Below are positions 8,597 through 36,397 of a stretch of 36,397 nucleotides of DNA, one piece after another. This stretch comes from Syntrophus sp. GWC2_56_31. GTDB taxonomy: Bacteria; Desulfobacterota; Syntrophia; Syntrophales; UBA5619. Location: assembly GCA_001829875.1 (NCBI GenBank), contig MICN01000087.1, forward strand, positions 1-36,397, given 5' to 3'. Within the stretch, counting starts at the first letter, position 1, and the number at the start of each line of letters is the position of its first letter. Below the pieces are notes generated by a model, which saw only the letters and a program-made list of their open reading frames with translations, was not told where the DNA came from and searched no databases. A program made the translations under genes and the position numbers.

Positions 8597-9587
8597 GGCT
8601 TATTTTCAATGCTTCCCGCACTTCGGCAAGCGTAGCCTTCGCAATCCCGGCGGCCCGACGGTTGCCGTCGGCGATGATCGCCAGGATCTCTTCAGGATGG
8701 TTCGAGTAATGCTCCCGCCTCTCATGGACCGGTCTCATTCCCTCCGCGACTGCAGCGGCAAGCCGTCGCTTGCATTCCGTACACCCGATGTCCGCACCCC
8801 GGCAAGCCGATTCTATCTCGGCTACCGCATCCGCGCTCGAATAGAGCTGGTGGAAGGTGCGGACGTTGCAGAGTTCCGGGCGACCGGGGTCGCTTCTCCG
8901 CTGGCGCTGAGGATCGGTAAACATCGACGCAACCTTCCTCTCCAGGGTTTCTCCCCGATCGCTCATGAAGATCGAATTATCATAGGACTTGCTCATTTTC
9001 CGACCGTCGATGCCGAGAAGCTTCGGGACTTCCGTCAGAAGCGGCTCGGGTATGGGAAAGAGCTCGCCATAGAGAAAATTGAAGCGGCGAGTGATTTCGC
9101 GTGTCAGCTCCACATGGGGGAGTTGATCGATGCCGACCGGTACGCCATATGCCTTATACATGATGATATCCGCCGCCTGCAGCACCGGATAACCCAGGAA
9201 TCCGAACGTCGAGAGGTCTTTTTGCGCAAGTTCTTCCTTCACTTCCTTGTAAGTCGGATTCCTCTCCAACCAGGCCAGGGGTGTAATCATCGAGAGTAAG
9301 AGGAATAGTTCGGCATGTTCTTTGATGGCCGACTGGATGAAGAGCGTACTTTTCTCCGGTTCCAGACCAGCGGCGAGCCAATCGATCACCATATCGAGCG
9401 TGTTCGCCCGGATCTCGTCCGTTGTTGCGTAGTCGCTTGTCAGTGCATGCCAGTCGGCGACAAAATAGTAGCACTCGTAATCACCGTGATTCTGGAGGGC
9501 AATCCAGTTTGAAAGGGCGCCATGGAGATTGCCTAAATGGAGTTTCCCCGTGGGCCTCATCCCGCTTAAGATCCGTTTCCTTGCCAA
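8586..9587 (-). CDS. trpS: Tryptophanyl-tRNA synthetase
   Basis: RILSGMRPTGKLHLGNLHGAL (HIGH region) and GRKMSKSYDNSI (KMSKS). Confidence 0.95.
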   Translation of the reverse strand: MARKRILSGMRPTGKLHLGNLHGALSNWIALQNHGDYECYYFVADWHALTSDYATTDEIRANTLDMVIDWLAAGLEPEKSTLFIQSAIKEHAELFLLLSMITPLAWLERNPTYKEVKEELAQKDLSTFGFLGYPVLQAADIIMYKAYGVPVGIDQLPHVELTREITRRFNFLYGELFPIPEPLLTEVPKLLGIDGRKMSKSYDNSIFMSDRGETLERKVASMFTDPQRQRRSDPGRPELCNVRTFHQLYSSADAVAEIESACRGADIGCTECKRRLAAAVAEGMRPVHERREHYSNHPEEILAIIADGNRRAAGIAKATLAEVREALKISHEL

Positions 9588-9607
9588 GTCTCCCTCCCGG
9601 AATGGAA

Positions 9608-9644
9608 CGAAAAGACCTCCACAAAGAAAAATGGAGGCCTTTCG
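9608..9644 (-). terminator. Rho-independent terminator-like hairpin downstream of the HU gene
   Basis: On the minus strand CGAAAGGCCTCCA...TGGAGGTCTTTTCG stem, between HU (9666) and trpS (9587). Confidence 0.55.
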
Positions 9645-9665
9645 CTTCGACTCTATATAATCCCG

Positions 9666-9938
9666 TTATTTTACTTTGTCCGTCAGCGCCTTGCCGGCTT
9701 TGAATTTGACAACCTTCTTGGCTGCGATTTTGATGGCCTTTCCGGTCTGGGGGTTTCGTCCGGTCCGGGCTTTTCTCTTCACCACGGAGAACGTTCCAAA
9801 CCCTACGAGCCCGAGTTTACCGCTCTTTTTGAGTTCCTTTTCCACTGCCCCGGTAAAGGCCTCCAGCGCTTTTGCGGCGGCTGCTTTCGAAACTGCTGCT
9901 CCCTTTGCCATCGCTCCAATCAATTCTGCCTTCGTCAT
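9666..9938 (-). CDS. HU-family DNA-binding protein
   Basis: MTKAELIGAMAKGAAVSKAAAAKALEAFTGAVEKEL...GFGTFSVVKRKARTGRNPQTGKAIKI. Confidence 0.93.
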   Translation of the reverse strand: MTKAELIGAMAKGAAVSKAAAAKALEAFTGAVEKELKKSGKLGLVGFGTFSVVKRKARTGRNPQTGKAIKIAAKKVVKFKAGKALTDKVK

Positions 9939-10220
9939 TCCTTTTTCTCCCCCTTTCGTTGATGATTTTAATGGAACATAACTTTCTCACCACCCCCACG
10001 GTGGCTAAACCTATAGCCGCTCATTTCCTGCAAAGGGAAAAATGCGGGAAACAATGCCATACTATAAAACGTGGAGTCACCACTAACACAATAAAAAACA
10101 ACAATCAAGAAAAATCTTAATATTTCTAATAAAGATGAGACATAAAAAAAATGCAGTCCAGCAACGCCAACGGTTTGATGCGCATAAGGCCGGGCGTTAT
10201 CTGATTTCACAGCAATTTTC

Positions 10221-11552
10221 TCAACGTCCCCTGTCCCTTTTCTTCACCAGAAAATAGAGTTCTCCTCGTTCTTTGAGGCTCCCCGCAAGCATTTCCGCTT
10301 CGTCACCGGTTCCGCAGAAGAGATCGACACGTCCCGCTCCCTTGATCATGCCGCCCGCATCCTGAGCGACGACAAATCGGGAGAAAGGCACCCAGGACAC
10401 CACATTCCCCTCCCGGTCGAGGATCGGCTTTTGCGCCCGAATAAAGGCCAGCGCCCCCCTTGGAAACACGGCGGCATCGGTCGCAATGGAGCGGCCCGCC
10501 GTAAGGATCTCCCCGAGAGAGCCGACAGGCCCCTCCTTGACTTCGCGGAAAAAAATGAAACTCTCGTTGTGCCCGAGGATCTCCGCGAGGGCTTCCGGGT
10601 GTTCCCTGAGGTAGCGTTTGATCGCCTGATACGACATGTCCTGAGGGCTGATCTTCCCTGTATCCATCAGGAAACGTCCCACGCTCTGGTAGGGGCGCCC
10701 ATTCTTGATTGCATAGCCGATCTGAAGGAGCTTTCCATTGGGCAGTTTGATTTTGCCGGACCCCTGCGTATGGAGAAAGAACAGATTGATGCGGTCGTCC
10801 ACCCAGGCGATCTCGAGATTACGACCGGCCAATGCAGCGAGATCTTCTATCTCGCTCCGACTATAATACGGAACGAGTTCTCCGTTTCTCACCCGGCCGA
10901 CCAGTTGGTCGCCCTGTTGCTTTTCTCTGAATTTTCCGAGGTTGACGACGACCGCGTCAGCCGGCGCCTTATATACGGGATATTTGTATTTCGCGGTTTT
11001 CTTCAGCGACCCGTCGAGGATCGGCTCGAAATAGCCGGTGAATAAAACGGCGTCCTTTCCGTCCAGACCGGTCGACCGATAGACGTCGAAGGTCTCCCGA
11101 ATCAGCATCTGCCTGGTTTCGCCCGTCTCGCCCCGACGGAGAATTTCCTTGAGGGCAAGGAGTGATTCCCTGAGCTCCCGAACGGTTACCATGGCGTCAT
11201 CCATCCGGTAAGGTCCGTTGCCGGCGGCCCGTGCGTAATACCTGAGGCTCTTTTCAATGGCCGTCTCCAGCGAGGCCGGATCCATGTCATCCGAAAAGAG
11301 AGGAAGTTGATCGGCAGAGAGGCGGATCAGGGGAGAGACCGGTTTCGGGATGACCGGGGGAGGCAGCGTCTCAGGCGGGACCGTGATTGGAGGTGCCGGT
11401 AGAGAAACAGGCGGCGGTATCGCGGCGGTCGGAGGAGCGGGTTTGAGCGTTGTCTGCGGCGACACCGATGGCGGTATCGGTTTTCTCGCCCGGCCCGCGC
11501 ACCCCGCTAGAAAAAAAAGGACCAGAAAAAAGATCAGGGCGCGTCTGGTCAT
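10221..11552 (-). CDS. mltA: MltA-family membrane-bound lytic murein transglycosylase
   Basis: Lipobox-like FFLAGCAG, proline-rich linker, TGYFEPILDGS, FLHTQGSGKIKLPNG, and C-terminal VVAQDAGGMIKGAGRVDLFCGTGDEAE. Confidence 0.88.
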   Translation of the reverse strand: MTRRALIFFLVLFFLAGCAGRARKPIPPSVSPQTTLKPAPPTAAIPPPVSLPAPPITVPPETLPPPVIPKPVSPLIRLSADQLPLFSDDMDPASLETAIEKSLRYYARAAGNGPYRMDDAMVTVRELRESLLALKEILRRGETGETRQMLIRETFDVYRSTGLDGKDAVLFTGYFEPILDGSLKKTAKYKYPVYKAPADAVVVNLGKFREKQQGDQLVGRVRNGELVPYYSRSEIEDLAALAGRNLEIAWVDDRINLFFLHTQGSGKIKLPNGKLLQIGYAIKNGRPYQSVGRFLMDTGKISPQDMSYQAIKRYLREHPEALAEILGHNESFIFFREVKEGPVGSLGEILTAGRSIATDAAVFPRGALAFIRAQKPILDREGNVVSWVPFSRFVVAQDAGGMIKGAGRVDLFCGTGDEAEMLAGSLKERGELYFLVKKRDRGR

Positions 11553-11553
11553 C

Positions 11554-12012
11554 TCACAGCTCCAGGATCATCGAGACTTCATCGCAAAAGTCGGGATATT
11601 TGGAACACCGGAAACAGTCCGACCAGATTTTCTCGGGGAGCGTGGAGCGCTTGACATCCTGAAAACCGAGTTTCCGGAAAAACTCCTGTTTGTATGTCAG
11701 TGTAAAGATCCGAAAGAGATCCAACGTGATCGCTTCGGAAATGCAGGCTTCCACCAGCTTTCGTCCGATCCCTTCCCTTCTGTGCGCCTCATCCACATAG
11801 AGCGAGCGAATCTCAGCCAGGTTCTCCCAAACGATGCTCATTGCACAGATCCCGATGACTTCATTATTCCCTTCATCTTGATAGATGAAAAAATCCCGCA
11901 GGCTGCCGTAGATATCCATCAGTGAACGGGGGAGCATCTCGCCCTTTCCCGAAGAGATGTTGATCGCTCTGTGAATGGTCCTGACATCACCGATACGGGC
12001 CTTCCTCAGCAT
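11554..12012 (-). CDS. GNAT-family N-acetyltransferase (short ArgA-like)
   Basis: AEIRSLYVDEAHRREGIGRKLVEACISEA acetyl-CoA motif; FRKLGFQDVKRSTLPEKIWSDCFRC. Confidence 0.75.
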   Translation of the reverse strand: MLRKARIGDVRTIHRAINISSGKGEMLPRSLMDIYGSLRDFFIYQDEGNNEVIGICAMSIVWENLAEIRSLYVDEAHRREGIGRKLVEACISEAITLDLFRIFTLTYKQEFFRKLGFQDVKRSTLPEKIWSDCFRCSKYPDFCDEVSMILEL

Positions 12013-13691
12013 CTCTCCCCCCTGGCGGCAGACAGCATCTCCCGTGCGTGGTCTCGCGTCTTGGCGGTCAGCTCTATCCCTCCGAGCATGCGGGCAATCT
12101 CCTCGAGACGCTGGGCCTCGGAAAGGACCGAGACGATGGTGTTTGTTCTCTTCCCGGCAACCCGCTTTACGACTTGGTAATGACGGTCCCCGCAGCAGGC
12201 GATCTGAGGCAGATGGGTAATGCAGAGGACCTGATGATGGCGGGAAACCTCTCTGAGTTTCTGACCCACGATCTCGGCCGTCGCTCCCCCGATGCCGCTG
12301 TCGACTTCGTCGAACACGATCGTCCCCACCGAACCGGTCCGGGCCAGAACTTTCTTTATGGCGAGCATGATCCGGGAAAGTTCGCCGCCGGAAGCGATGC
12401 CCCGCAGGGGTTTGAGCTCCTCCCCGACGTTCGTCGAGAGGTAGAATTCCGGATCGTCTATCCCCTTTTCGTTGAAGGCCGCATCCCCCTCCGGTATTTC
12501 TCGAAAGACAACGGCAAAATGGGCATTTTCCATTCCGAGCGTCCTTATTTCCGCCTCGATTGTCGCTTTGAGGGCGGCGGCCTTCTCACGACGCCTTCCG
12601 GAAAGGATTTTCGCATTTTCCACCAGCCGTCCCCGTTCGGCAGCGATCGCCGTCACCAACACAGAGATTTCCTCTTCGACCGAGGCAATGTTTCGCAGCT
12701 CTTCTTCCGCTTCGGCCGCTTTGCCGAGGACCGCGTCGAGCGTTCCGCCGTACTTGCGCTTCAGGCGGCCCAGAAGCTCCAGTCGCGCTTCAATAGCCTC
12801 CATCCGCGCCGGATCGAACGTATGGCGTTTCGCATAGTCGCGGAGGGTGAAGGCGGCGTCCTCGATCCGGTAATAGAGCTCTTCCATATCCCCCTCGGAG
12901 AGTTTCAGCGCCGGGTCGATCTTCCGGATCTCTTTTACAGCCACGGCGGCGCTTCGGAATTCGGTGAGCACCGAATCGCTTTTCCCGTAAAGGGTATCGT
13001 AACCCGCCTCCGCATAATCGATGAGTTTCTGGACGTTGGCGAGTATTTTCTTCTCATCGAGAAGCGCCGTGTCTTCGCCCGTCAGGATATCCGCCTGCGA
13101 GATCTCACCGATCTGAAAACGGAGGAGGTCCTCGCGCTGCGCCCTTGTTCGCCTCAACTCCTGAAGCCCGTGGTGTTTCTCGTTGAGCTCACGGTACCGG
13201 TCATACGTCTGGCGGTACGCCGACCGAAGCGGGAGCAGTCCGCCGAACTCGTCGAGAATATCCGTGTGATTGTCCGGGTCTAAAATCATCTGGTGTTCGT
13301 GCTGGCCGCAGATATTGATCAGCGATTCACCGATCGACGCTAGCGACGCCAGGGAAGCCAGGGCGCCGTTGATGTAAATCCTGTTCTTTCCTGAACGCGA
13401 TACGACGCGACGAACGATGAGGTCATCACCGTCGCCGAACCCCATCTCGCTGACCTTTTTCCGTAATCCGCCATAATCACGAATGTTGAACAGTGCTTCA
13501 ACCACAGCCGCATCCTCGAAGGAGCGGATCATGTCGGCGTTGGCCCGGTCGCCCAGAAGAAGGCCCACGGCGCCGATGATGATCGATTTGCCGGCGCCGG
13601 TCTCCCCGGAGATGACGTTGAGACCCCCGTCGAAGGCGATCTTCAGTTCATCGATGATGGCAAAATTACGGATGTTCAGTTCCGTAAGCAT
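12006..13691 (-). CDS. recN: DNA repair ATPase RecN
   Basis: MLTELNIRNFAIIDELKIAFDGGLNVISGETGAGKSIIIGAVGLLLGDRA; ASGGELSRIMLAIK; FDEVDSGIGG. Confidence 0.95.
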   Translation of the reverse strand: MLTELNIRNFAIIDELKIAFDGGLNVISGETGAGKSIIIGAVGLLLGDRANADMIRSFEDAAVVEALFNIRDYGGLRKKVSEMGFGDGDDLIVRRVVSRSGKNRIYINGALASLASLASIGESLINICGQHEHQMILDPDNHTDILDEFGGLLPLRSAYRQTYDRYRELNEKHHGLQELRRTRAQREDLLRFQIGEISQADILTGEDTALLDEKKILANVQKLIDYAEAGYDTLYGKSDSVLTEFRSAAVAVKEIRKIDPALKLSEGDMEELYYRIEDAAFTLRDYAKRHTFDPARMEAIEARLELLGRLKRKYGGTLDAVLGKAAEAEEELRNIASVEEEISVLVTAIAAERGRLVENAKILSGRRREKAAALKATIEAEIRTLGMENAHFAVVFREIPEGDAAFNEKGIDDPEFYLSTNVGEELKPLRGIASGGELSRIMLAIKKVLARTGSVGTIVFDEVDSGIGGATAEIVGQKLREVSRHHQVLCITHLPQIACCGDRHYQVVKRVAGKRTNTIVSVLSEAQRLEEIARMLGGIELTAKTRDHAREMLSAARGERC

Positions 13692-24026: not shown

Positions 24027-24989
24027 ATGCTGACCAAAATGTTGCGCTGTCTTTTGTTAGTCGTGTTTGTCGTGACGAGTGCGTACGCACAAAATTATCC
24101 GGCCAAATCGGTACGCATTATTGTACCCTATGCACCAGGCGGTAGCGTCGATTCCGTAACACGTTTGGTTGGTCAGAAGTTTACCAAAGAGTTCGGCCAG
24201 CCATTCATTGTTGAAAACCGAGCCGGTGCATCCGGGAATATCGGCACCGATTCCGCGGCAAAGGCCGCCCCCGATGGATACACACTCCTAATGAGCAGTT
24301 CCCCTCCCCTTGCTGCGAATATCCACCTCTTCAAAAAGCTGCCGTTCGACCCGTTCAAGGACTTTGCACCGATCATGCTGATCGCCAACCAGCCCAACGT
24401 GCTCGTGCTCAATCCTTCGGTACCGGCTGGAAGCGTCAAGGAGCTTATCGAATTGGCTAAATCGAAGCCGGGCAAGCTCACTTTCGGCAGTTCCGGCGTC
24501 GGAGCTTCCCAGCACATGGCGGCTGAACTTTTCATGATGATGACGGGCGTCAACATGAAGCATGTTCCATACAAAGGCGGCGGGCCGGCCATGGTCGATC
24601 TGATCGGGGGGCATATCGATTTGATGCTTGAAACCGCGCCGTCAGCGATACCTTTTGTACATTCGGGTAAGGTTAAGGCATTGGCCGTAACAACGCTGCA
24701 GCGCTCGGGCAGGCTGCCCAATGTACCAACCCTCGATGAGGCGGGATTGAAGGGCTATGAATTCCGCGGCTGGATTGGGCTCGTCGCGCCGGCTGGGGTT
24801 CCCAAGGAGATCATTGCAAAGCTTCACGACCAGCTTCAAAAGGACATCGCGGGTGATTTGCGCAAGCAGCTCGATGAAATGGGCCTCGATATCGCCGGCG
24901 GGACACCCCAACAGTTTGCGGATTTCATCCGCAAGGATTCCGACATGTACGCCAAGCTCGTCAAGGCGGCTAACATAGCGCCGCGCTGA
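24027..24989 (+). CDS. Tripartite tricarboxylate transporter substrate-binding protein (TctC/Bug family)
   Basis: Signal peptide; YPAKSVRIIVPYAPGGSVDSVTRL; VENRAGASGNIGTDSAAKAAPDGYTLL. Confidence 0.93.
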   Translation: MLTKMLRCLLLVVFVVTSAYAQNYPAKSVRIIVPYAPGGSVDSVTRLVGQKFTKEFGQPFIVENRAGASGNIGTDSAAKAAPDGYTLLMSSSPPLAANIHLFKKLPFDPFKDFAPIMLIANQPNVLVLNPSVPAGSVKELIELAKSKPGKLTFGSSGVGASQHMAAELFMMMTGVNMKHVPYKGGGPAMVDLIGGHIDLMLETAPSAIPFVHSGKVKALAVTTLQRSGRLPNVPTLDEAGLKGYEFRGWIGLVAPAGVPKEIIAKLHDQLQKDIAGDLRKQLDEMGLDIAGGTPQQFADFIRKDSDMYAKLVKAANIAPR

Positions 24990-25023
24990 CGGCTTTTCAA
25001 CGCTTGTCATTCCAGTCATTATT

Positions 25024-25063
25024 CGTGAGTCACCCTGCAGGCAACGCCCTGGGGTGACTCACG
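25024..25063 (+). promoter_or_regulatory. Intercistronic 12-bp perfect stem-loop after tctC
   Basis: CGTGAGTCACCC-N16-GGGTGACTCACG, not followed by a T-tract. Confidence 0.65.
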
Positions 25064-25091
25064 GCTTTAAAATACTTTCCAAATTTAGCAT

Positions 25092-26321
25092 TTGCAAATG
25101 AAGAGGGTGAATGAAATGGTCAAAGTCCTTAAAGGGAAAAAAATATTTACCGGTTATGAAGTCATCCATGACGGATGTGTCGTCATCGATGGAGAAAAAA
25201 TTGTTGGCGTGGGAATGGAATCAAAAATGCACATACCAGACAAAAGCGACATCATCGATTTTGGTGATAACACGATTTTGCCCGGTTTAATCGACAGCCA
25301 TACCCACTTGGCTTTAAGTGCCCAAATGCCCAACTATGCGGCAACCATGAAAGACGATACGTTAACTCTAACCCTTCGCGCAGCCCGCAATATTCGTTGT
25401 GATTTATTATCCGGAGTGACCACGATGCGTTGCCTGGGAGAAAAAGACTTTATCGATGTGGCGATAAAAGACGCCGTTGAAAAGGAATTAATACCCGGAC
25501 CAAGGTTGTTAATAAGCGGCAAGGGGATTCGATCCAGTTATGGGCATGGTATCATGGGGACCCCGTTTGATGGCGTAGAAGAGGTCAGAAAAGCCGCCCG
25601 CATCAATATTCACGATGCGGGCGCCGATCAGGTGAAGGTATTTGTAACCGGCAGCAAAGGCGAATTCAGAAACTTCAAGTTTGGAACCGAACGCACGGTG
25701 GAACGCAATGAAATGCAGTCACTCATGACCAAAGAAGAAATTCAAGCGGCTGTGGAGACGGCTCATTGTGTGGGTAAAAAAGTAGCGGCGCACTGTTATG
25801 GAGGTGTAGGGCTGAAACACTGTGTTGAAGCCGGTGTGGATACGATCGAACATGGAATCTATATGGATGATGACGACATAGAAATGATGCTCAAAGCAAA
25901 AGCATGGTTGACGGTTACCCAGAACGGCTATTTAAGCGATCAACGCATTATCAATAGGGGTACCCCTGAGCTGACAAAAGGTTTTGTGAAGTTTCGGGAC
26001 GACGTTCGCGCCGCGTATACCAAAGCTGTCCATTCCGGTCTGAGGTATGCGTTGGGCACGGACGGAAATCACGGCGGTTTTGCTTATGAACTGGAGACGC
26101 TGGTTGGTTTCAACATAGAGCCGATGAAGGCCTTACAGGCGGCAACCACGGAGGCTGCCTGCATGTGCGGGGTCGATGAAAAAGTAGGTTCTCTGGAAGC
26201 AGAAAAATTTGCAGATATCCTGGTTGTCGATGGTGATCCTTTGACTACAATGAGCGATATCACGAAGGTGACGGCTGTTTTTAAAGGCGGAAGACGAATG
26301 GACGATATAAGTCAGTGGTGA
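25092..26321 (+). CDS. Amidohydrolase family protein (imidazolonepropionase-like)
   Basis: GLIDSHTHLAL (HxH), KVFVTG (Lys), VAAHCYGG, TIEHGIYMDD, ALGTDG (metal Asp). Confidence 0.9.
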   Translation: MQMKRVNEMVKVLKGKKIFTGYEVIHDGCVVIDGEKIVGVGMESKMHIPDKSDIIDFGDNTILPGLIDSHTHLALSAQMPNYAATMKDDTLTLTLRAARNIRCDLLSGVTTMRCLGEKDFIDVAIKDAVEKELIPGPRLLISGKGIRSSYGHGIMGTPFDGVEEVRKAARINIHDAGADQVKVFVTGSKGEFRNFKFGTERTVERNEMQSLMTKEEIQAAVETAHCVGKKVAAHCYGGVGLKHCVEAGVDTIEHGIYMDDDDIEMMLKAKAWLTVTQNGYLSDQRIINRGTPELTKGFVKFRDDVRAAYTKAVHSGLRYALGTDGNHGGFAYELETLVGFNIEPMKALQAATTEAACMCGVDEKVGSLEAEKFADILVVDGDPLTTMSDITKVTAVFKGGRRMDDISQW

Positions 26322-26341
26322 GAGCCATCACAAGCTGAAGG

Positions 26342-26830
26342 ATGAAAATTAAAAGCCAAAAAGATTTCTACTCCGGCGTTTTGTTCATGGTGGTGGGCAT
26401 CGGCTTCGCCTGGGGCGCCACACGATATGAGATTGGTGTCGGCTCCAATATGGGGCCGGGATATTTCCCATTCATGCTTGGGGTCTTGATAGCCGCTCTA
26501 GGGGTCATCATTACGATCAAGGCGCTGATCATCAAAAACGAAGACGGAGACAAGATTGGTCCCTGGGCATGGAAACCCTTGGCCTATATTCTGGGTGCTA
26601 ATTTGGCGTTTGGCGTATTGGTCGGCGGCCTGCCCAGTATCAGGCTACCCGCTGCCGGTTTGATCGCAGGGATTTATATCCTTACCCTTATCGCCAGTTT
26701 GGCAAGCCACGCCTTCAAGATCCGTCAAGCGATGATTCTTGCAACCATCTTGGCAGTGGGCAGCTATCTCGCGTTCATTGTACTGCTGAAATTGAACATT
26801 TCTGTGTGGCCTGCCTTCATCACCGGTTAA
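26342..26830 (+). CDS. Tripartite tricarboxylate transporter TctB family protein
   Basis: 162 aa, 4 TM; FYSGVLFMVVGIGFAWGA...YEIGVGSNMGPGYFPFMLGVLIAALG. Confidence 0.9.
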   Translation: MKIKSQKDFYSGVLFMVVGIGFAWGATRYEIGVGSNMGPGYFPFMLGVLIAALGVIITIKALIIKNEDGDKIGPWAWKPLAYILGANLAFGVLVGGLPSIRLPAAGLIAGIYILTLIASLASHAFKIRQAMILATILAVGSYLAFIVLLKLNISVWPAFITG

Positions 26831-26840
26831 GAAAGCTGAA

Positions 26841-28355
26841 ATGATGGATTTAATTTCAAACCTGCATTTAGGCTTCAGCGTAGCCATCACTCCCATGAAT
26901 GTGATGTACGCATTTATCGGCTGCTTTTTAGGTACCCTTATCGGCGTACTGCCAGGCATCGGGCCGGTCGCCACCATAGCGATGTTGTTGCCCGTTACTT
27001 ACGTCTTGCCCCCCGTGTCGGCACTGATCATGATGGCTGGCCTTTACTATGGGGCGCAATATGGTGGATCGACCACCTCTATTCTCGTGAATTTGCCCGG
27101 TGAGCCCTCGTCGGTTGTGACCTGTATCGATGGTTATCAGATGGCCCGGAAAGGTCGTGCCGGCCCGGCACTGACCGCCGCCGCCATGGGTTCCTTTTTC
27201 GCCGGTTCGGTGGGGGTTCTGGTTTTAGCCGCTTTTGCAACGCCACTGACCGAACTTGCCTTCAAGTTCGGGCCTTCGGAATATTTCTCGCTCATGGTAC
27301 TGGGTCTTATCGGCGCTGTGCTGCTGGCCACGGGTTCATTGCTCAAGGCTATCGCAATGATCCTGCTGGGTCTGCTCCTGGGGGTTGTGGGAACGGACAT
27401 CAATTCCGGCGTCGAGCGCTTCAGTTTAAACATTGCCGAGCTGGCAGACGGCATCGGATTTGTGGTCATCGCCATGGGTATCTTCGGCTATGGCGAAATC
27501 ATCGGCAACCTTGGACAATCGAAAGACAAGCGCGAGGTGTTCACGTCCAAGGTGCACGGCCTCTTCCCCACCAAAAAAGACTTCAAGGACATGACGCCCG
27601 CGGTTTTACGTGGGACAGTCGTTGGTTGTATGCTCGGCATCCTGCCCGGCGGCGGCGCCCTGCTTGCCGCCTTTGCCGCCTACGCCATCGAAAAGAAAGT
27701 CGCCATGAGGACCGACGAAGTTCCCTTTGGACAGGGCAACATCCGCGGCGTTGCCTCGCCGGAGTCGGCCAATAATGCCGGCGCCCAAACGTCATTCATC
27801 CCTTTGCTTACGCTTGGAATCCCGACCAATGCGGTGATGGCATTGATGGTAGGCGCCATGACCATCCACAATATTCAGCCGGGACCGCAGGTTATCACCA
27901 ACAATCCAGAGCTTTTCTGGGGTCTGATTGTCTCGATGTGGATTGGGAACCTGATGCTTGTGATTTTGAATCTGCCGCTTATTGCCATTTGGATCAAGAT
28001 GCTGACGGTCCCTTACCACTTCCTGTATCCCGCCATAGTCCTGTTTTGTGCCATCGGGGTGTACTCCACCAACAACAATACCTTCGACATCTGGATGGTG
28101 GGAATATTCGGTTTCATCGGCTATCTGTTCATCAAGCTCGGTTGCGAACCGGCCCCCCTTCTCCTGGGCTTTATTCTGGGACCGATGATGGAGGAAAACC
28201 TGCGCCGCGCGCTCTTGATTGCCGACGGTGACTGGTGGCGTGCGTTCATGATGCGTCCGTTGTCGGCGACCCTGCTGATACTCGTTGCATTGCTGCTTCT
28301 GATCGTCATGCTTCCAGGCATTAAAAAGAAGCGCAAAGAAGCGTTGACGGGGTGA
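26841..28355 (+). CDS. Tripartite tricarboxylate transporter permease TctA
   Basis: GCFLGTLIGVLPGIGPVATIAMLLPVTY; YYGAQYGGSTTSILVNLPGEPSSVVTCIDGYQMARKGRAGPAL. Confidence 0.95.
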   Translation: MMDLISNLHLGFSVAITPMNVMYAFIGCFLGTLIGVLPGIGPVATIAMLLPVTYVLPPVSALIMMAGLYYGAQYGGSTTSILVNLPGEPSSVVTCIDGYQMARKGRAGPALTAAAMGSFFAGSVGVLVLAAFATPLTELAFKFGPSEYFSLMVLGLIGAVLLATGSLLKAIAMILLGLLLGVVGTDINSGVERFSLNIAELADGIGFVVIAMGIFGYGEIIGNLGQSKDKREVFTSKVHGLFPTKKDFKDMTPAVLRGTVVGCMLGILPGGGALLAAFAAYAIEKKVAMRTDEVPFGQGNIRGVASPESANNAGAQTSFIPLLTLGIPTNAVMALMVGAMTIHNIQPGPQVITNNPELFWGLIVSMWIGNLMLVILNLPLIAIWIKMLTVPYHFLYPAIVLFCAIGVYSTNNNTFDIWMVGIFGFIGYLFIKLGCEPAPLLLGFILGPMMEENLRRALLIADGDWWRAFMMRPLSATLLILVALLLLIVMLPGIKKKRKEALTG

Positions 28356-28357
28356 AA

Positions 28358-30592
28358 TCACTTCGGGACTGAGATTGACAGACGAAAACCATAGAGGTCG
28401 CCCTTTGCCTCCGGTGTGAGCCCGTAACGCGTCGATGCCCGGCTGCCGGCCGGTTCGAAGAGCCATGCTCCGCCACGCAGGACGCGGCGCGTTCCGCTCT
28501 GCGGCCCTGCGGGATTCTTACGGGGGCTTTGCCTGTAATACATCTCGCCATACCAGTCCTGACACCACTCCCAGGCATTGCCGGTCATATCGTACAGCCC
28601 CAGGCCATTGGGCTGTTTTTGGCCCGATGGATGTATACTGCCGCCCGAGTTGGCGCTGTACCATGCGTATTTCCCGAGCTCGTCATCGCTGCTTGTCCCG
28701 GCATACTTCTCTTTCTTGCCACCGCTGCGCGCTGCGTACTCCCATTCCGCTTCCGTGGGCAGACGATATTTCTTCCCGCTCTTCGCATTCAATTTTGTCA
28801 GAAATTCCTGAATATCGTTCCAGCTGACCTGCTCCACCGGACATTTTTCTCCGCAATTCTTGAAAAACGAAGGGTTGCTGCCCATAACCGACTGCCACTG
28901 ACCCTGCGTCACTTCATATTTCCCGATGTAGAAATCATCGACGCAGGCCGTGCGGACAGGCTGCTCGTCTGCCTGACCATCCCCGAAGGTGTCTCCCATC
29001 TGGAAACACCCCCCCTTGATCAATACCAACTCGAAGGCCTTTATCGGATCGACCGAGGTCTCCATACGTTCGGAGGGTGTCTCTTCTTTCAGCGTTGTCT
29101 GAACACGGAAGGCCGCCTTAATCCGTACAATGTCGCCTTCAATGGAAAAAGACAAGGGCTTTACCGCTGTAATCCGGGATACCGTCTCGATCGCTTCCGC
29201 CATCTTGTCGGTCCTCAGGAGATGGGACGCCTCCTTTGTATTGCGGAAATACTGTTTCTCGGCGTCATTTTTCACCTCGGCCAGCTTATCCGCAATCGCA
29301 TCGGCGGCAGCCTCGATCGGTGTCTGGGAACCTTTGAGGAAAGCTGCACCCCTTACGGGAATGATCGTTGCCTGAAGACGCATCTTCGCTTCGAGTGCAT
29401 TCCGGGCCGCTTTGAATGACTGTTCCGCTCTTTCCATTCCTCCGCGAATTTTATCAAGCTCGCGCCGCATAGGTTCGTGACGGGACTCCTGCTTTTGCAG
29501 GGCAGCGGCCCACATTTCCCGATCAGAACGGCTGTCGGCAATCTTCTTTTGAAGGTTGGCGGTTTTCTCCCGCAGGGACCGGAGCCGCTCGTTCAACCGC
29601 TCCCCCGTCTGCATGTTCTCTTTCATCGTATCACGAATAAGAATATCTACTTCTTTTGCATCTTTACCGCTCAGTGAATAATTGGACTTTTTTAGGAACG
29701 CATCCAGATCCTTCAGGGAATTGACCATGACAGCCGGTAAAGTAGGCGAATCGCCCTTTGTCAGGGGCTGTCCCTTTTTCGGCTTCTGGAAAGGATAAAA
29801 GTCGAAGCGCTTCAGTTGAAGATACGTGATGCTCTTGCTATCTTTTTCAAGCACAACGAGCAGCGCCTTTTCTCGATTCCCGATGAAGACCTCGTCCGTC
29901 GCATCGCGAATGAAATCCGCCGACAGGACGCCGCCCAGGGCTTTTGAGAGGGGTTGCTTGTAAGCCTCTTTGCGCTGTGCCGTAAGCAGCGCTACGGATA
30001 TCCGATCGGCAAGATGTTCGAGGGCAGCGCTTCGTGTGTCTTTTATGTCCACCGTGTACGTGACGGCAACAAGGTCGGAACCCTGCTTCTCCATGCCCAA
30101 CCATGTTTCGAAGGATTTCTGGAGAGTCTTCATCTCCTGATTCCCGCGAGCAAGACCGCTGTCGATCTTCTCGATGGTCGTACGGATCGTCCTGATCGCT
30201 TGGAGGGTGTCTTCCGAGTCCGTCGAAAGAGACCGAACCTGGGCGGCCAGATCATCGCGCATATTCCTGGCTTTGGTGAAGGACAGAACGGCATTATCGA
30301 TGTTTTCCCGAGACATTTCATCTTCTCGGGTTTTGTCTTCCTCGATGAACTTCCAGCTGTCCACCTCTTCCTGAGGGGTGGAGTAGGCTCCACTCTGCTT
30401 GTTGAGTTCGTCGATAATGGTTTTCCGTACATCGGCGCGTTTGTCGGACGACAGATTCTGCCATGGACTGCTCGACCAAGTCTGGGGTCGTGCATTGGAT
30501 AACAGATTCGGCCACGGGCTGCCCGACCACGCTTGCGGGCATAACACGAAGACCGACAGTACGATTGGAATCAGTAAACCTTTTGCTCTCAT
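28358..30592 (-). CDS. Exported coiled-coil protein with C-terminal SUMF1/FGE-sulfatase-fold domain
   Basis: Signal peptide; long coiled coil; IKGGCFQMGDTFGDGQADEQPVRTACVDDFYIGKYEVTQGQW...YRLPTEAEWEYAARSGG...NGLGLYDMTGNAWEWCQDWYG...RRVLRGGAW. Confidence 0.9.
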   Translation of the reverse strand: MRAKGLLIPIVLSVFVLCPQAWSGSPWPNLLSNARPQTWSSSPWQNLSSDKRADVRKTIIDELNKQSGAYSTPQEEVDSWKFIEEDKTREDEMSRENIDNAVLSFTKARNMRDDLAAQVRSLSTDSEDTLQAIRTIRTTIEKIDSGLARGNQEMKTLQKSFETWLGMEKQGSDLVAVTYTVDIKDTRSAALEHLADRISVALLTAQRKEAYKQPLSKALGGVLSADFIRDATDEVFIGNREKALLVVLEKDSKSITYLQLKRFDFYPFQKPKKGQPLTKGDSPTLPAVMVNSLKDLDAFLKKSNYSLSGKDAKEVDILIRDTMKENMQTGERLNERLRSLREKTANLQKKIADSRSDREMWAAALQKQESRHEPMRRELDKIRGGMERAEQSFKAARNALEAKMRLQATIIPVRGAAFLKGSQTPIEAAADAIADKLAEVKNDAEKQYFRNTKEASHLLRTDKMAEAIETVSRITAVKPLSFSIEGDIVRIKAAFRVQTTLKEETPSERMETSVDPIKAFELVLIKGGCFQMGDTFGDGQADEQPVRTACVDDFYIGKYEVTQGQWQSVMGSNPSFFKNCGEKCPVEQVSWNDIQEFLTKLNAKSGKKYRLPTEAEWEYAARSGGKKEKYAGTSSDDELGKYAWYSANSGGSIHPSGQKQPNGLGLYDMTGNAWEWCQDWYGEMYYRQSPRKNPAGPQSGTRRVLRGGAWLFEPAGSRASTRYGLTPEAKGDLYGFRLSISVPK

Positions 30593-31672: not shown

Positions 31673-34600
31673 CTATGACAAGTTATTGCCAAGATTGTTA
31701 AGTAAGTTCGAAGTATTCGGGCATCCTATAGCAGCCAGATTCTCGCAGAGCTTTTCTAATAAACGTTGCGGCGCCCCGGCCGAGATGAGTTGGTCCACCA
31801 ATGGTTCGAGTTCATGGCAGAAATATCTGGGCATTTGCGCATCTGATGTCAGGTGAACAAGCAGCCGTGCGACAGCCTCTGGAATCCGTTTGACCATGTC
31901 CTTTTTTTCTTGTTCCAGGCGGTAAAACATCGAAGTATTATCGAAATGCGGTACCCTCCCATTACGGATCCCTTCGACCGCCTCGGTAAAAACCGGTTCC
32001 AGTTCGACAACCCATTTCACCATTTCACAAAGCTCGCCATTGGAAAGCAGGCAGGGAATCCCCTGGTTGCGCCCCTGCCAGTATGACTTCAGCCACCGGT
32101 CCCACAGACCTTTCTTGACCTCATTCGACATGGGTGTCAGGTGACGACCGATCTCAGAAGCAAAGTGAATGCGATCTTCATTGGAAGTCGCTTTCAGAAA
32201 CTCCCAAAGCCACCCGTTATCCCTGGGGTCGTCCATGAAAAATAGCGAAATGTAAGTGACATGCTCGGTGAATCGCTCCCCTTCTTCCCGGAGTTCCGAA
32301 GCAAGACGGTGAAAGGCTTTTCTGTAATAGGGGAGAAGCTCGGTAAGGAGCGGCTCCGTAGGACGTCCCGCAGCAAGCCACCCCGACCACGCCTGACGCG
32401 CCACAAGGGCATCCCTTTCCCAATCCATCAATGGAATAAGATGCGTCTTCGTCCAAGCTTCATCCACGGAGAACAAAAACCGAAGTTGGCTGGCCAGCAC
32501 TGCACGGCCGAGAGCTCCGGCATTGCCGCCATCGGAGATGATCATGGTGAAACGATCCCTAAAACGCTTCGGCATCCCTTGTTTTGGATCGGTTTTTTTT
32601 CTGCCCCGGGACAGAGTATTAAGCCAGAATTCGGCCAGCTTGCCGGCCGGATGATCGATCGCCCTTCCCAACCGGTCCCGGTCCTCCATCTCCCCATCCT
32701 CATTTGCCAGTACCGCCCAAACCTGTTTTGCCACCCGATCGGCCAAGCTCAAGAGCCGAACCGGGATCCCCTCTTTCTTCTCCACACCCATCAGCAGCAG
32801 GTCTGCAATGTCGTGGACGTGATTTCGAGTCAGGCCCTCGCTATTCATAGTGGTCAATACGATCTTCCATTGTGCAGTCGAAAGACGGGCGCCCCACCAT
32901 CCGTGTAGGACGTTTCTCCATAGATCCGATGCCGGATCGGCATGTTCGATCAAGAGGTCGGCAAGTTCTTGCCCCCAGGCAAAGTCTTGCTGAACAGCCT
33001 CTCTGATGGTTCCGAGCAGACCGTCCCGACCGGGTCCCTCAAACGGATCACCCCGATAGTCCACGATGAATTTCCACCATTCCGCGGGCCGCTTTCCCAG
33101 GAGTTCCTCCACGGAGTGCGGACTGCGATGGCCGAAACCGCCGCTCGACATCCAATAATTTAAATCGGGGTGCGCTTCAGGCTCGAAGACGATCCCGGCG
33201 TGAGCTTGTCTGATATCGGCCAAACGGTCTGCCACCTCACGACAGTCGGGATCCGCCTGGGACAGCCAGTGAAAGAACCCAGATTTTTTATACGCCTTTC
33301 TGATCGGAGCCTCTTCATCTTTTTCCGGCCGCGCATCAATCCCTTCTTCGATGATCGTCAACAACGCTTTCCTTAACGCTGGATCGGCTCCCGGATAGGC
33401 CTTTTTCAGCAATTGAAAAACCTCATGCTTCATCCAATGTATGAAGAGGAATCCCTTGTCAATCAGCCAGCGGATTTTGGTGTTTCCGTCCTTATGGGTT
33501 GTCACGCCCATCCCATGCACCGCCAGGCGCCGCAACAGCAGCGGTTCCATGGCAGCCGCCGCATCGATCCATGCCTGTCCCACCTCCGGCGAGTTTTCCA
33601 AAGCCCATTCGAGGCAATCCCTCGCTGCATCGATCAGGAGGTCTTCCGAATGGGGAAACTGGTCCTGGTCATGCGGTTCGATGGCGGATCGATGCATGCT
33701 CAAGGGGTCCCACTGGGCGGTTGCCATACCCCAACTGCAACTCAGCAAAAACGACTGATTGAGGTTCTGCACCAATGCCGGCCAGAGTAAAAATGCAAGA
33801 TCGGGCAGATGCGGTTTGCCTTCCTTATCCCAGACTCTTTTGAGTGTATGATAATCTCCGCAGAAACCTATTTCCATCTCGATCTTGCGCCCATCATTTT
33901 CATCGGGGAAAGCGATCGCTTCTTTCAGAATAGAGTAGGGTCGGGTGAGATGGTCGAGCAATTGGACGGCGGCAGCGAACGCCCCTTGACGGAGAGCCAG
34001 CTTCAAAATGTACGAAAACGCTGATTGATCTGCACGGTGGCTGACAAACGGGAGAAATTCAAGCAAGAGGGGAATCCATTTAGAGATCACTTCCCGATCA
34101 GGGACATCCCTGGAGTAAGCAAGGCGCCCCGTAATCCCTTGCATGAAACGAGGATGCGGCGTTTTACTGTGCCGATTCATAACGGCAAAGACTGCATCGG
34201 GGTGCTCAACGGCGAAATTCTGTGCAATCCAATCCATAAAATCCTGGTCGATTTCGGTGAGATCGCCTTGGCTGAACAGCGGGGACAGTAATGGCCGTTC
34301 GGAGACCCAGGCCAGCCACTCCGGTTTTTTTGCATGATGTGTGAAAAAACGGACCGATACGATATCGGTGAGGGCATCGACCAGAAAATCCCTGGCTTCG
34401 TCATCCAATGACGTCGGAAGACCTTCGACGAGCGTTTTAATCCGCTGTTCGATCTCCAGGATGCCGCGGTTGGCATGGGCCACAAAGCCGGCAAATGCCT
34501 TGTCCAATCCTATATAGTCATCCCTCCCCTCGAACGGAAATGAGAGAGCCTTGATGCCGAGATTATCCCATTTTTGCAGATCGTCATCGGCCCGAACCAG

Positions 34601-35287
34601 TGCGAATCGTAGCCCGTTTTTATCAGGGGGCAATCCGCGGGAGAGATAGTGCATCACGATGTCGTCGTGGCTGTAACCAACAAACAAGACCGTATAGCGG
34701 CCGAACAGGGACAGGAGGAAGCGGGTCGCCCATCCCTCCGTCAGGTAGGTGCGGCCAAAGTCCCGATCGGTCAGAATCAGCCTCTTCGGGTCATCCCGGA
34801 CGCTGCCGTGGAGACAGACAATCCCCGCAAAGTCATTCCCCAACGGCAGGGCAGGCGCCCGGAAGACTATAGGTTTCTGCCCATAGATTGTGACGGCCGC
34901 TGTTTCGAAGTGAGCATCAAAATTGGTCGTGACGATCCGGATGTGATCCCACCTTCCGAAGAGCTTCAGGATATTTTCATGAAGGGCCGTGGGTCTTGAA
35001 ACGGGAGATGATAAACGCTCGGCTACCTGTTGATGGATCTTAATGCCGTTTTGATCCAGTCGGCCGAGGAAACGATCGATAGCCTCATTTTTCGAATCCC
35101 ACTCATAGCCCGACCACTTCGCAATTTCCAGAGTCAATCCTTTGAAGTCCGGATAATTTGAAGGAGGTCCAATGGAAACACCGGCCCCGGCAAAGACGAC
35201 CAATGGTTGCTCATGCCGGGCATTCAGGGATTGCTTATGCAGCGCTTTGATCAGTCGTCCGTCGAAATCGACACCATCAATCCACAT
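31673..35287 (-). CDS. SIR2-domain protein, 1204 aa (probable SIR2_2/DUF4020 architecture), putative anti-phage defence effector
   Basis: VVFAGAGVSIGPPSNYPDFKGL (GAGxS), RIVTTNFDAHFE (TNxD), GIVCLHGSV (His), VLFVGYSHDDIVMHYL; long C-terminal region. Confidence 0.82.
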   Translation of the reverse strand: MWIDGVDFDGRLIKALHKQSLNARHEQPLVVFAGAGVSIGPPSNYPDFKGLTLEIAKWSGYEWDSKNEAIDRFLGRLDQNGIKIHQQVAERLSSPVSRPTALHENILKLFGRWDHIRIVTTNFDAHFETAAVTIYGQKPIVFRAPALPLGNDFAGIVCLHGSVRDDPKRLILTDRDFGRTYLTEGWATRFLLSLFGRYTVLFVGYSHDDIVMHYLSRGLPPDKNGLRFALVRADDDLQKWDNLGIKALSFPFEGRDDYIGLDKAFAGFVAHANRGILEIEQRIKTLVEGLPTSLDDEARDFLVDALTDIVSVRFFTHHAKKPEWLAWVSERPLLSPLFSQGDLTEIDQDFMDWIAQNFAVEHPDAVFAVMNRHSKTPHPRFMQGITGRLAYSRDVPDREVISKWIPLLLEFLPFVSHRADQSAFSYILKLALRQGAFAAAVQLLDHLTRPYSILKEAIAFPDENDGRKIEMEIGFCGDYHTLKRVWDKEGKPHLPDLAFLLWPALVQNLNQSFLLSCSWGMATAQWDPLSMHRSAIEPHDQDQFPHSEDLLIDAARDCLEWALENSPEVGQAWIDAAAAMEPLLLRRLAVHGMGVTTHKDGNTKIRWLIDKGFLFIHWMKHEVFQLLKKAYPGADPALRKALLTIIEEGIDARPEKDEEAPIRKAYKKSGFFHWLSQADPDCREVADRLADIRQAHAGIVFEPEAHPDLNYWMSSGGFGHRSPHSVEELLGKRPAEWWKFIVDYRGDPFEGPGRDGLLGTIREAVQQDFAWGQELADLLIEHADPASDLWRNVLHGWWGARLSTAQWKIVLTTMNSEGLTRNHVHDIADLLLMGVEKKEGIPVRLLSLADRVAKQVWAVLANEDGEMEDRDRLGRAIDHPAGKLAEFWLNTLSRGRKKTDPKQGMPKRFRDRFTMIISDGGNAGALGRAVLASQLRFLFSVDEAWTKTHLIPLMDWERDALVARQAWSGWLAAGRPTEPLLTELLPYYRKAFHRLASELREEGERFTEHVTYISLFFMDDPRDNGWLWEFLKATSNEDRIHFASEIGRHLTPMSNEVKKGLWDRWLKSYWQGRNQGIPCLLSNGELCEMVKWVVELEPVFTEAVEGIRNGRVPHFDNTSMFYRLEQEKKDMVKRIPEAVARLLVHLTSDAQMPRYFCHELEPLVDQLISAGAPQRLLEKLCENLAAIGCPNTSNLLNNLGNNLS

Positions 35288-35328
35288 TGGCTCCCTCTAT
35301 TCAAGATGAACTTCCGGCCATGCTGATC

Positions 35329-36204
35329 TTAGTGTTCCTTTTCCGTCAATGCCTCGACAAACCCTTGTTTCAGCTTTTCCAGGTGAAGCTGGACCTCATC
35401 AAACTTTTCATAGCGCAACGGCAAGCCCCGGATCATATCGATGATCAATCGGTATGGAGAACCTTGCTTGGTTTCGGCCTCCAAAATTACTGTAATTGTC
35501 ACCACCGTATCGGGTACGGCGATCCGGGCCATATCACGACCCAGCAACCGGATACCGGCCAGCCGGGTGTCAAACGCCTCTTCTTCGAGAAGATCCCGTT
35601 CTTGCTCATAAAGCCTCTCCAGGTTTCCGGCATCTTCGTATTTCTGCATGATCATCAGGAGATCTCCCGCATCCTTGGCGCGTTCGGGATATCGTTCCGC
35701 CCATGAAATGACCTTCAACAGCGCCAGACCAGCCAGTGTCGGCAGTCGGATATCCAGTTCTGGAGCGGAACTCAGTCTGGCTGTCACAGAGGACTCGTAG
35801 GCCTCGTCAAAGCCGACCACACTTATGAACATTGAGTGCTCGGGAGGCCAACTGATCCTCTTTCGTTCGTCCGTAATATCGCCGAAAGGAACAATATCAA
35901 TCCAGACGGTTTCGTAGTGGAATCTTTGCCTCTCCCGCGTGGAAGTGAATTTTCCGGTGGCAATCAAGGCATCCTTCAATCGGTCGAACTGTTCCCAGTC
36001 CGCGACCCTGACACCCAGATCGATGTCCCGTGTGATCCGGGAAGGTTCCACCCCATACCCATGTTTCAGTATCAGATCTCTCGCCAAGGCGCCCACGACA
36101 AAAAAGGGAATGTTCAAGGCGTCCGACTCGCGCTTCAAGGCAGATAGGGCATTGATTGTCGGCCGGTCAATTTTCCCCGACAAGTCGAAGGATATGTTGT
36201 TCAT
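35329..36204 (-). CDS. AbiEii/AbiGii-type nucleotidyltransferase (putative type IV toxin)
   Basis: FFVVGALARDLILKHGYGVEPSRITRDIDLGVRVADWEQF (NTase G-A...DxD), WIDIVPFG (third Asp), LAGLALLKVISWAERYPERAKDAGDLLMIM. Confidence 0.8.
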   Translation of the reverse strand: MNNISFDLSGKIDRPTINALSALKRESDALNIPFFVVGALARDLILKHGYGVEPSRITRDIDLGVRVADWEQFDRLKDALIATGKFTSTRERQRFHYETVWIDIVPFGDITDERKRISWPPEHSMFISVVGFDEAYESSVTARLSSAPELDIRLPTLAGLALLKVISWAERYPERAKDAGDLLMIMQKYEDAGNLERLYEQERDLLEEEAFDTRLAGIRLLGRDMARIAVPDTVVTITVILEAETKQGSPYRLIIDMIRGLPLRYEKFDEVQLHLEKLKQGFVEALTEKEH

Positions 36205-36397
36205 AGATCATCCTGGCCGTTTCGATGTTCCTCTGGTCCCCCGTCGCCAGGAGATCAGCGTAAACGAGGATCGGGTGCACCAGCTCTCCATCAGTTCGCT
36301 GCTCGTCGGGTTTCCAGAATCGTTCGAGTATTTCGACATCGCCCGCGATATCCTTTCGGAGCCGGTTTTCAATCAGCAGCGGATTGAGCTCCGGGGC
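36167..36397 (-). CDS. AbiEi-like antitoxin, C-terminal part (partial, runs off window)
   Basis: Minus-strand open frame from window edge: APELNPLLIENRLRKDIAGDVEILERFWKPDEQRTDGELVHPILVYADLLATGDQRNIETARMIYEQHILRLVGEN*. It overlaps the nucleotidyltransferase start by 38 bp. Confidence 0.55.
   Translation of the reverse strand, partial: APELNPLLIENRLRKDIAGDVEILERFWKPDEQRTDGELVHPILVYADLLATGDQRNIETARMIYEQHILRLVGEN

Follow-up and report, generated by a model that had tools for sequence, protein, structure and literature searches.

Do an AbiE toxin-antitoxin pair and the SIR2 gene directly behind it form one three-part defence system, or are they two ordinary kinds of defence gene that have come to lie together? 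The question is raised by three consecutive minus-strand genes at the end of the window, which takes in the first 36,397 of the 39,093 bases of its contig and ends at a 10-N scaffold gap. An earlier note on this DNA had read them as a candidate composite system, in which a nucleotidyltransferase switch could be coupled to an NADase effector. The features concerned are listed below.

36167..36397, minus strand: 3' part of abiEi, predicted type IV antitoxin/putative winged-helix repressor of the AbiEi_2 family (PF09952, 74.8 bits)
35329..36204, minus strand: abiEii, pol-beta-type nucleotidyltransferase, predicted toxin, 291 aa (PF08843, 35.0 bits; motifs I-IV)
35288..35328, minus strand: abiEii-SIR2 junction, 41 bp, with a Shine-Dalgarno-like AGGGAG before the SIR2 start (sequence; scan)
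31673..35287, minus strand: predicted Dsr1-like SIR2 NADase, 1204 aa (PF13289 and PF13212; NF041818; structure model)

All coordinates and lengths given in the earlier note were exact, including the 38-bp overlap of abiEi and abiEii (36167-36204) and the 41-bp gap before the SIR2 gene, and its protein assignments were borne out: an AbiEi-like C-terminus (AbiEi_2, recognized on the partial gene), an AbiEii-type nucleotidyltransferase, and a SIR2 protein (PF13289 SIR2_2, 62.6 bits; PF13212 DUF4020, 47.5 bits). The upstream abiEi sequence that it asked for was located just outside the window, past the 10-N gap, where contig positions 37178-36408 encode the N-terminal 257 codons. Compared with the intact 350-aa AbiEi of G036, a genome from another family of the same order and the only other carrier of the trio, about 17 codons (residues 258-274) fall in the gap. 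The abiEi frame is probably continuous across it in the source genome; assembly effects could in part account both for this gap of 10 bases and for the interruption of the G036 SIR2 gene described below. Upstream of abiEi lies a TctC gene (contig 37339-38337, confirmed by Pfam), and window positions 24027-28355 hold a probable TctC/amidohydrolase/TctB/TctA run of a tripartite tricarboxylate transporter, recognized by eye from the sequences. The protein encoded at 28358-30592 (744 aa) resembles a coiled coil in its N-terminal half and carries an FGE-sulfatase (formylglycine-generating enzyme-like) domain at its C-terminus.

We examined the AbiE pair by Pfam search and by alignment of AbiEii with 13 window-type relatives. 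The PF08843 match is modest and the PF09952 match strong, and both are above the cut-off. Motifs I (VGA), II (RDIDLG), III (KVISWAER), and IV (KDAGD), of the types that PMC3985639 defines for AbiEii, were all found, and all four align with the relatives, motifs III and IV as the patterns K..SW.ER and KDxxD, respectively. The partial AbiEi is 93% identical to its G036 orthologue, which scores 144.8 bits against PF09952 and shows a weak, sub-threshold winged-helix match; the window gene is cut by the gap. Other families of the order, and other parts of the phylum, also have window-type pairs, mostly with the 38-bp overlap. The studied AbiE system is bicistronic and self-sufficient, its AbiEi represses its own promoter, and AbiE can stabilise mobile elements (PMC3985639). 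The window pair shares with it the overlapping AbiEi-AbiEii order in one operon, both Pfam families, and the four nucleotidyltransferase motifs; it differs in a longer AbiEi of the AbiEi_2 family, in an overlap of 38 bp instead of 4 bp, and in the SIR2 gene downstream. Judged by these sequence features, AbiEi/AbiEii is an ordinary type IV toxin-antitoxin pair. A D...ExK-like run (RPDYLLTIIVQGREFHYYAEIK), PD-(D/E)XK-like by eye, was noticed within the N-terminal 130 residues of AbiEi (L019:1370-2179). A single-sequence query found no viral relatives of AbiEii.

The SIR2 protein consists of a SIR2 domain at about residues 1-272, with catalytic Asn122 and His160 (a trait of Dsr1 proteins), and an alpha-solenoid at about 276-1198 that includes DUF4020 at 1024-1168. 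Asn122, Asp124, His160, and Gly161 are invariant among 67 sequences of the family, and the AlphaFold2 model (pLDDT 91) shows the SIR2 domain followed by the long alpha-solenoid. The closest PDB folds are nearly all DSR2 structures (8WY8, 8WKN, and others), aligned over the whole chain. The SIR2 domain alone superimposes on DSR2 with a TM of about 0.7, whereas the global TM-score is low (about 0.2, at about 11-12% identity), as a differently curved solenoid would give. N122/H160 correspond to N133/H171 of DSR2, whose double mutant is the NADase-dead control, and DSR2 works as a single gene, its C-terminal domain being the sensor of the phage tail tube (PMC10973363). The window protein thus resembles DSR2 in its best full-length fold matches, its catalytic Asn/His pair, and its architecture of SIR2 domain plus solenoid sensor; at this identity and TM-score, it may well differ from DSR2 in the shape of its solenoid and in its phage trigger, and it scores only 14.3 bits against an NCBIfam Dsr2 cut-off of 1400. 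The Thoeris ThsA and KomC SIR2 NADases share the SIR2 domain fold (target-normalised TM about 0.66 for KomC), but no SLOG, TIR, or KomB partner was seen at the window locus and the window solenoid is much longer.

Dsr1 (defence-associated sirtuin 1, NCBIfam NF041818; Garb et al., 2022, as cited in PMC10952713) is likewise a single large protein with an N-terminal SIR2_2 domain and a long C-terminal region, and similarity to the window protein is detectable over both halves. The window protein scores 268 bits against NF041818, far under the curated cut-off of 1400 bits, compared with 1674 bits for an annotated E. coli Dsr1 used as positive control; the PADLOC Dsr1 model gave 255 bits. Pfam finds DUF4020 in the window protein but none in the E. 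coli and Nitrosococcus Dsr1 proteins tested. In a quick FastTree phylogeny, with long branches and a midpoint root, the window protein falls outside the Dsr1 clade, in a 76-row sister group with support of 100. A scan of bacterial genomes, with a two-sequence alignment as query, gave 80 relatives, nearly all of which match over most of their length; with one more on a viral contig the total is 81, at 26-45% identity. The relatives found by the scan share two peptide patterns, so others exist. They are spread over Pseudomonadota, Chloroflexota, Acidobacteriota, Actinomycetota, Bacillota, Cyanobacteriota, Planctomycetota, and other phyla, and no relative was found in phage records. In the literature searched we found neither a mention of DUF4020 nor a paper on a SIR2 plus DUF4020 sister clade of Dsr1. 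By sequence comparison, the protein is Dsr1-like, from a widespread sister clade of Dsr1.

If the trio were one system, its parts would be expected in each other's company. Neighbouring proteins were scanned with HMMs of the window-type AbiE and with Pfam. None of the 81 SIR2 relatives had window-type AbiEi or AbiEii in the flanking DNA examined (several lie on short contigs with incomplete flanks), and only one of 117 neighbouring proteins of 150-520 aa was an AbiEii, at the locus L067, which the window-type HMMs alone miss. The relatives adjoin varied defence genes instead: HmaC, RloB/AbiLii, JetA, a second SIR2 protein, FRG/PDC-S15, and ApeA-type genes. In L057, L059, L079, L113, and L102 the SIR2-DUF4020 gene immediately follows HmaC, RloB/AbiLii, JetA, or a second SIR2 gene. 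Members of the family are often found at the 3' end of a different defence operon, and in defence islands generally. In the other direction, a SIR2 gene was next to window-type AbiE at none of 26 loci with readable downstream DNA. Seven of these come from the order, 13 from the phylum sample (with 300 or more bases downstream), and 6 from plasmids; some have a partial AbiEii. The search took in every genome of the order in the collection used (155 genomes), and the phylum was sampled. The trio occurs in two of the 155 genomes, the source genome and G036, and the G036 SIR2 gene is broken, so the conservation across genomes that the earlier note had proposed to check does not extend beyond the clustering of defence genes. 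That note had stated that SIR2 homologues routinely lacking AbiE, and AbiE pairs routinely lacking SIR2, would speak against it; as far as distribution goes, this is largely what the 81 and 26 loci show. In a paper naming AbiEii, SIR2, and defence, they are separate systems.

The G036 copy bears on both the unity and the history of the block. There AbiEi and AbiEii (80% identical) are intact, and the SIR2 frame, 74% identical over residues 1-146, is broken after residue 146 and followed by a PF19778 restriction endonuclease fragment (L020:7286-8334; G036:C194). In this region, similarity to the window is limited to 34895-37276; the flanks differ, and the G036 block lies in unrelated surroundings. 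From abiEi into the first part of abiEii the two are about 94% identical in nucleotides; beyond that point they are about 80% (79-84%) identical. The drop, near 36000 (about 35990-36040) inside abiEii, is likely a recombination breakpoint, and the block therefore looks like a recombined mosaic. In the slowly evolving rpoB region the two genomes share only 74-77% identity, less than even the most divergent part of the block; together with the unrelated surroundings, this indicates that the AbiE-SIR2 block most likely moved laterally after the two families separated. Synonymous divergence is about 0.5-0.6 in abiEii and SIR2, so the link has lasted some time. The broken G036 gene could suggest that the SIR2 gene is a passenger in decay that no longer has a function. 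We set this reading aside as highly improbable: the window gene is a full-length 1204-codon frame with a confident predicted fold and all family-invariant residues intact.

A true three-gene system, in which AbiEii activity or the release of AbiEi/AbiEii during infection would switch the SIR2 NADase on or off, is in our estimate unlikely. The packing is tight, and the 38-bp AbiEi/AbiEii overlaps across the order, together with the 41-bp AbiEii-SIR2 spacing found again in G036, indicate that it is not chance; the arrangement has also persisted over the synonymous divergence given above. L067 (JAQTZV010000026.1, a Desulfuromonadaceae MAG, positions 8892-13477) is a second, independent AbiEii-SIR2 pairing, with AbiEii overlapping the start of the SIR2 relative by 4 bp. 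But this AbiEii belongs to another subfamily (PADLOC PDLC02299, 315 bits) and has no AbiEi beside it, and its operon also encodes a helicase and a protein of 1376 aa; the SIR2 clade is almost always found without AbiE and AbiE without SIR2; and G036 lost SIR2 while keeping AbiE. A broader proposal is that AbiEii-superfamily nucleotidyltransferases, of the window type and of the L067 subfamily, repeatedly team with Dsr1-like SIR2 NADases and, by modifying the SIR2 protein or its sensor, let phage attack release the depletion of NAD+. In view of the L067 pairing and the persistence of the trio, such functional coupling keeps a low probability, and we consider the proposal itself still more doubtful than a three-gene system.

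No promoter- or terminator-like site was found in the scan of the 41-bp junction; this and the AGGGAG ribosome-binding-like site make co-transcription likely, in support of the earlier suggestion that the packing reflects one transcript. The abiEi promoter probably serves the SIR2 gene as well as AbiE. Since AbiEi is an autorepressor in the studied example, it may govern all three genes of a shared transcript and, by this analogy, may set SIR2 expression. It is conceivable, at somewhat less than even chances, that the SIR2 gene is stabilised and tuned by the AbiE in front of it, serving as an addiction module or autoregulated promoter, a coupling that would be regulatory and not biochemical. 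The stabilising and autorepressing properties of AbiE (PMC3985639), the junction lacking a promoter-like site, and the lateral movement of the block are consistent with this; the restriction of the arrangement to two genomes and the mosaic divergence (identity of 94% for the 5' part and of about 80% for the 3' part), which shows that the parts recombine separately, argue against it. Such an arrangement is a stronger form of, and compatible with, the explanation that we prefer.

We consider it probable that the locus holds two independent abortive-infection modules, arranged head to tail in a mobile cassette, with SIR2 probably co-transcribed. The 81 SIR2 relatives lacking window-type AbiE, the 26 AbiE loci lacking SIR2, the G036 copy with SIR2 broken and AbiE intact, the lateral movement of the block, and the varied defence genes beside other SIR2 relatives all point to independence, as do a fold and catalytic residues matching single-gene DSR2 and the self-sufficiency of bicistronic AbiE (PMC3985639); the presence of the trio in two families of the order and the 4-bp overlap in L067 count against it. 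On this two-module explanation, AbiEi would repress the promoter and neutralise the AbiEii nucleotidyltransferase, the pair forming a separate abortive-infection or stabilising unit. The SIR2 protein would be a stand-alone Dsr1-like sensor-effector, whose alpha-solenoid would sense a phage component and release the N-terminal SIR2 domain to destroy NAD+. SIR2 would be read from the abiEi promoter along with AbiE, at a level that AbiEi may set, and the two modules would act independently. Of the earlier reading, the protein identities and the likely co-transcription are supported; the nucleotidyltransferase switch coupled to an NADase effector, and with it the composite system, is not.

The trio is most likely a local pairing of two ordinary defence gene kinds and not a new three-part defence machine. 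The AbiE-SIR2 pairing is rare and separable; a functional one would connect an NADase with a nucleotidyltransferase toxin. The locus also documents a large sister clade of Dsr1, with SIR2 and DUF4020 in proteins of about 1170-1200 aa, which spans many phyla and lies far under the curated Dsr1 cut-off.
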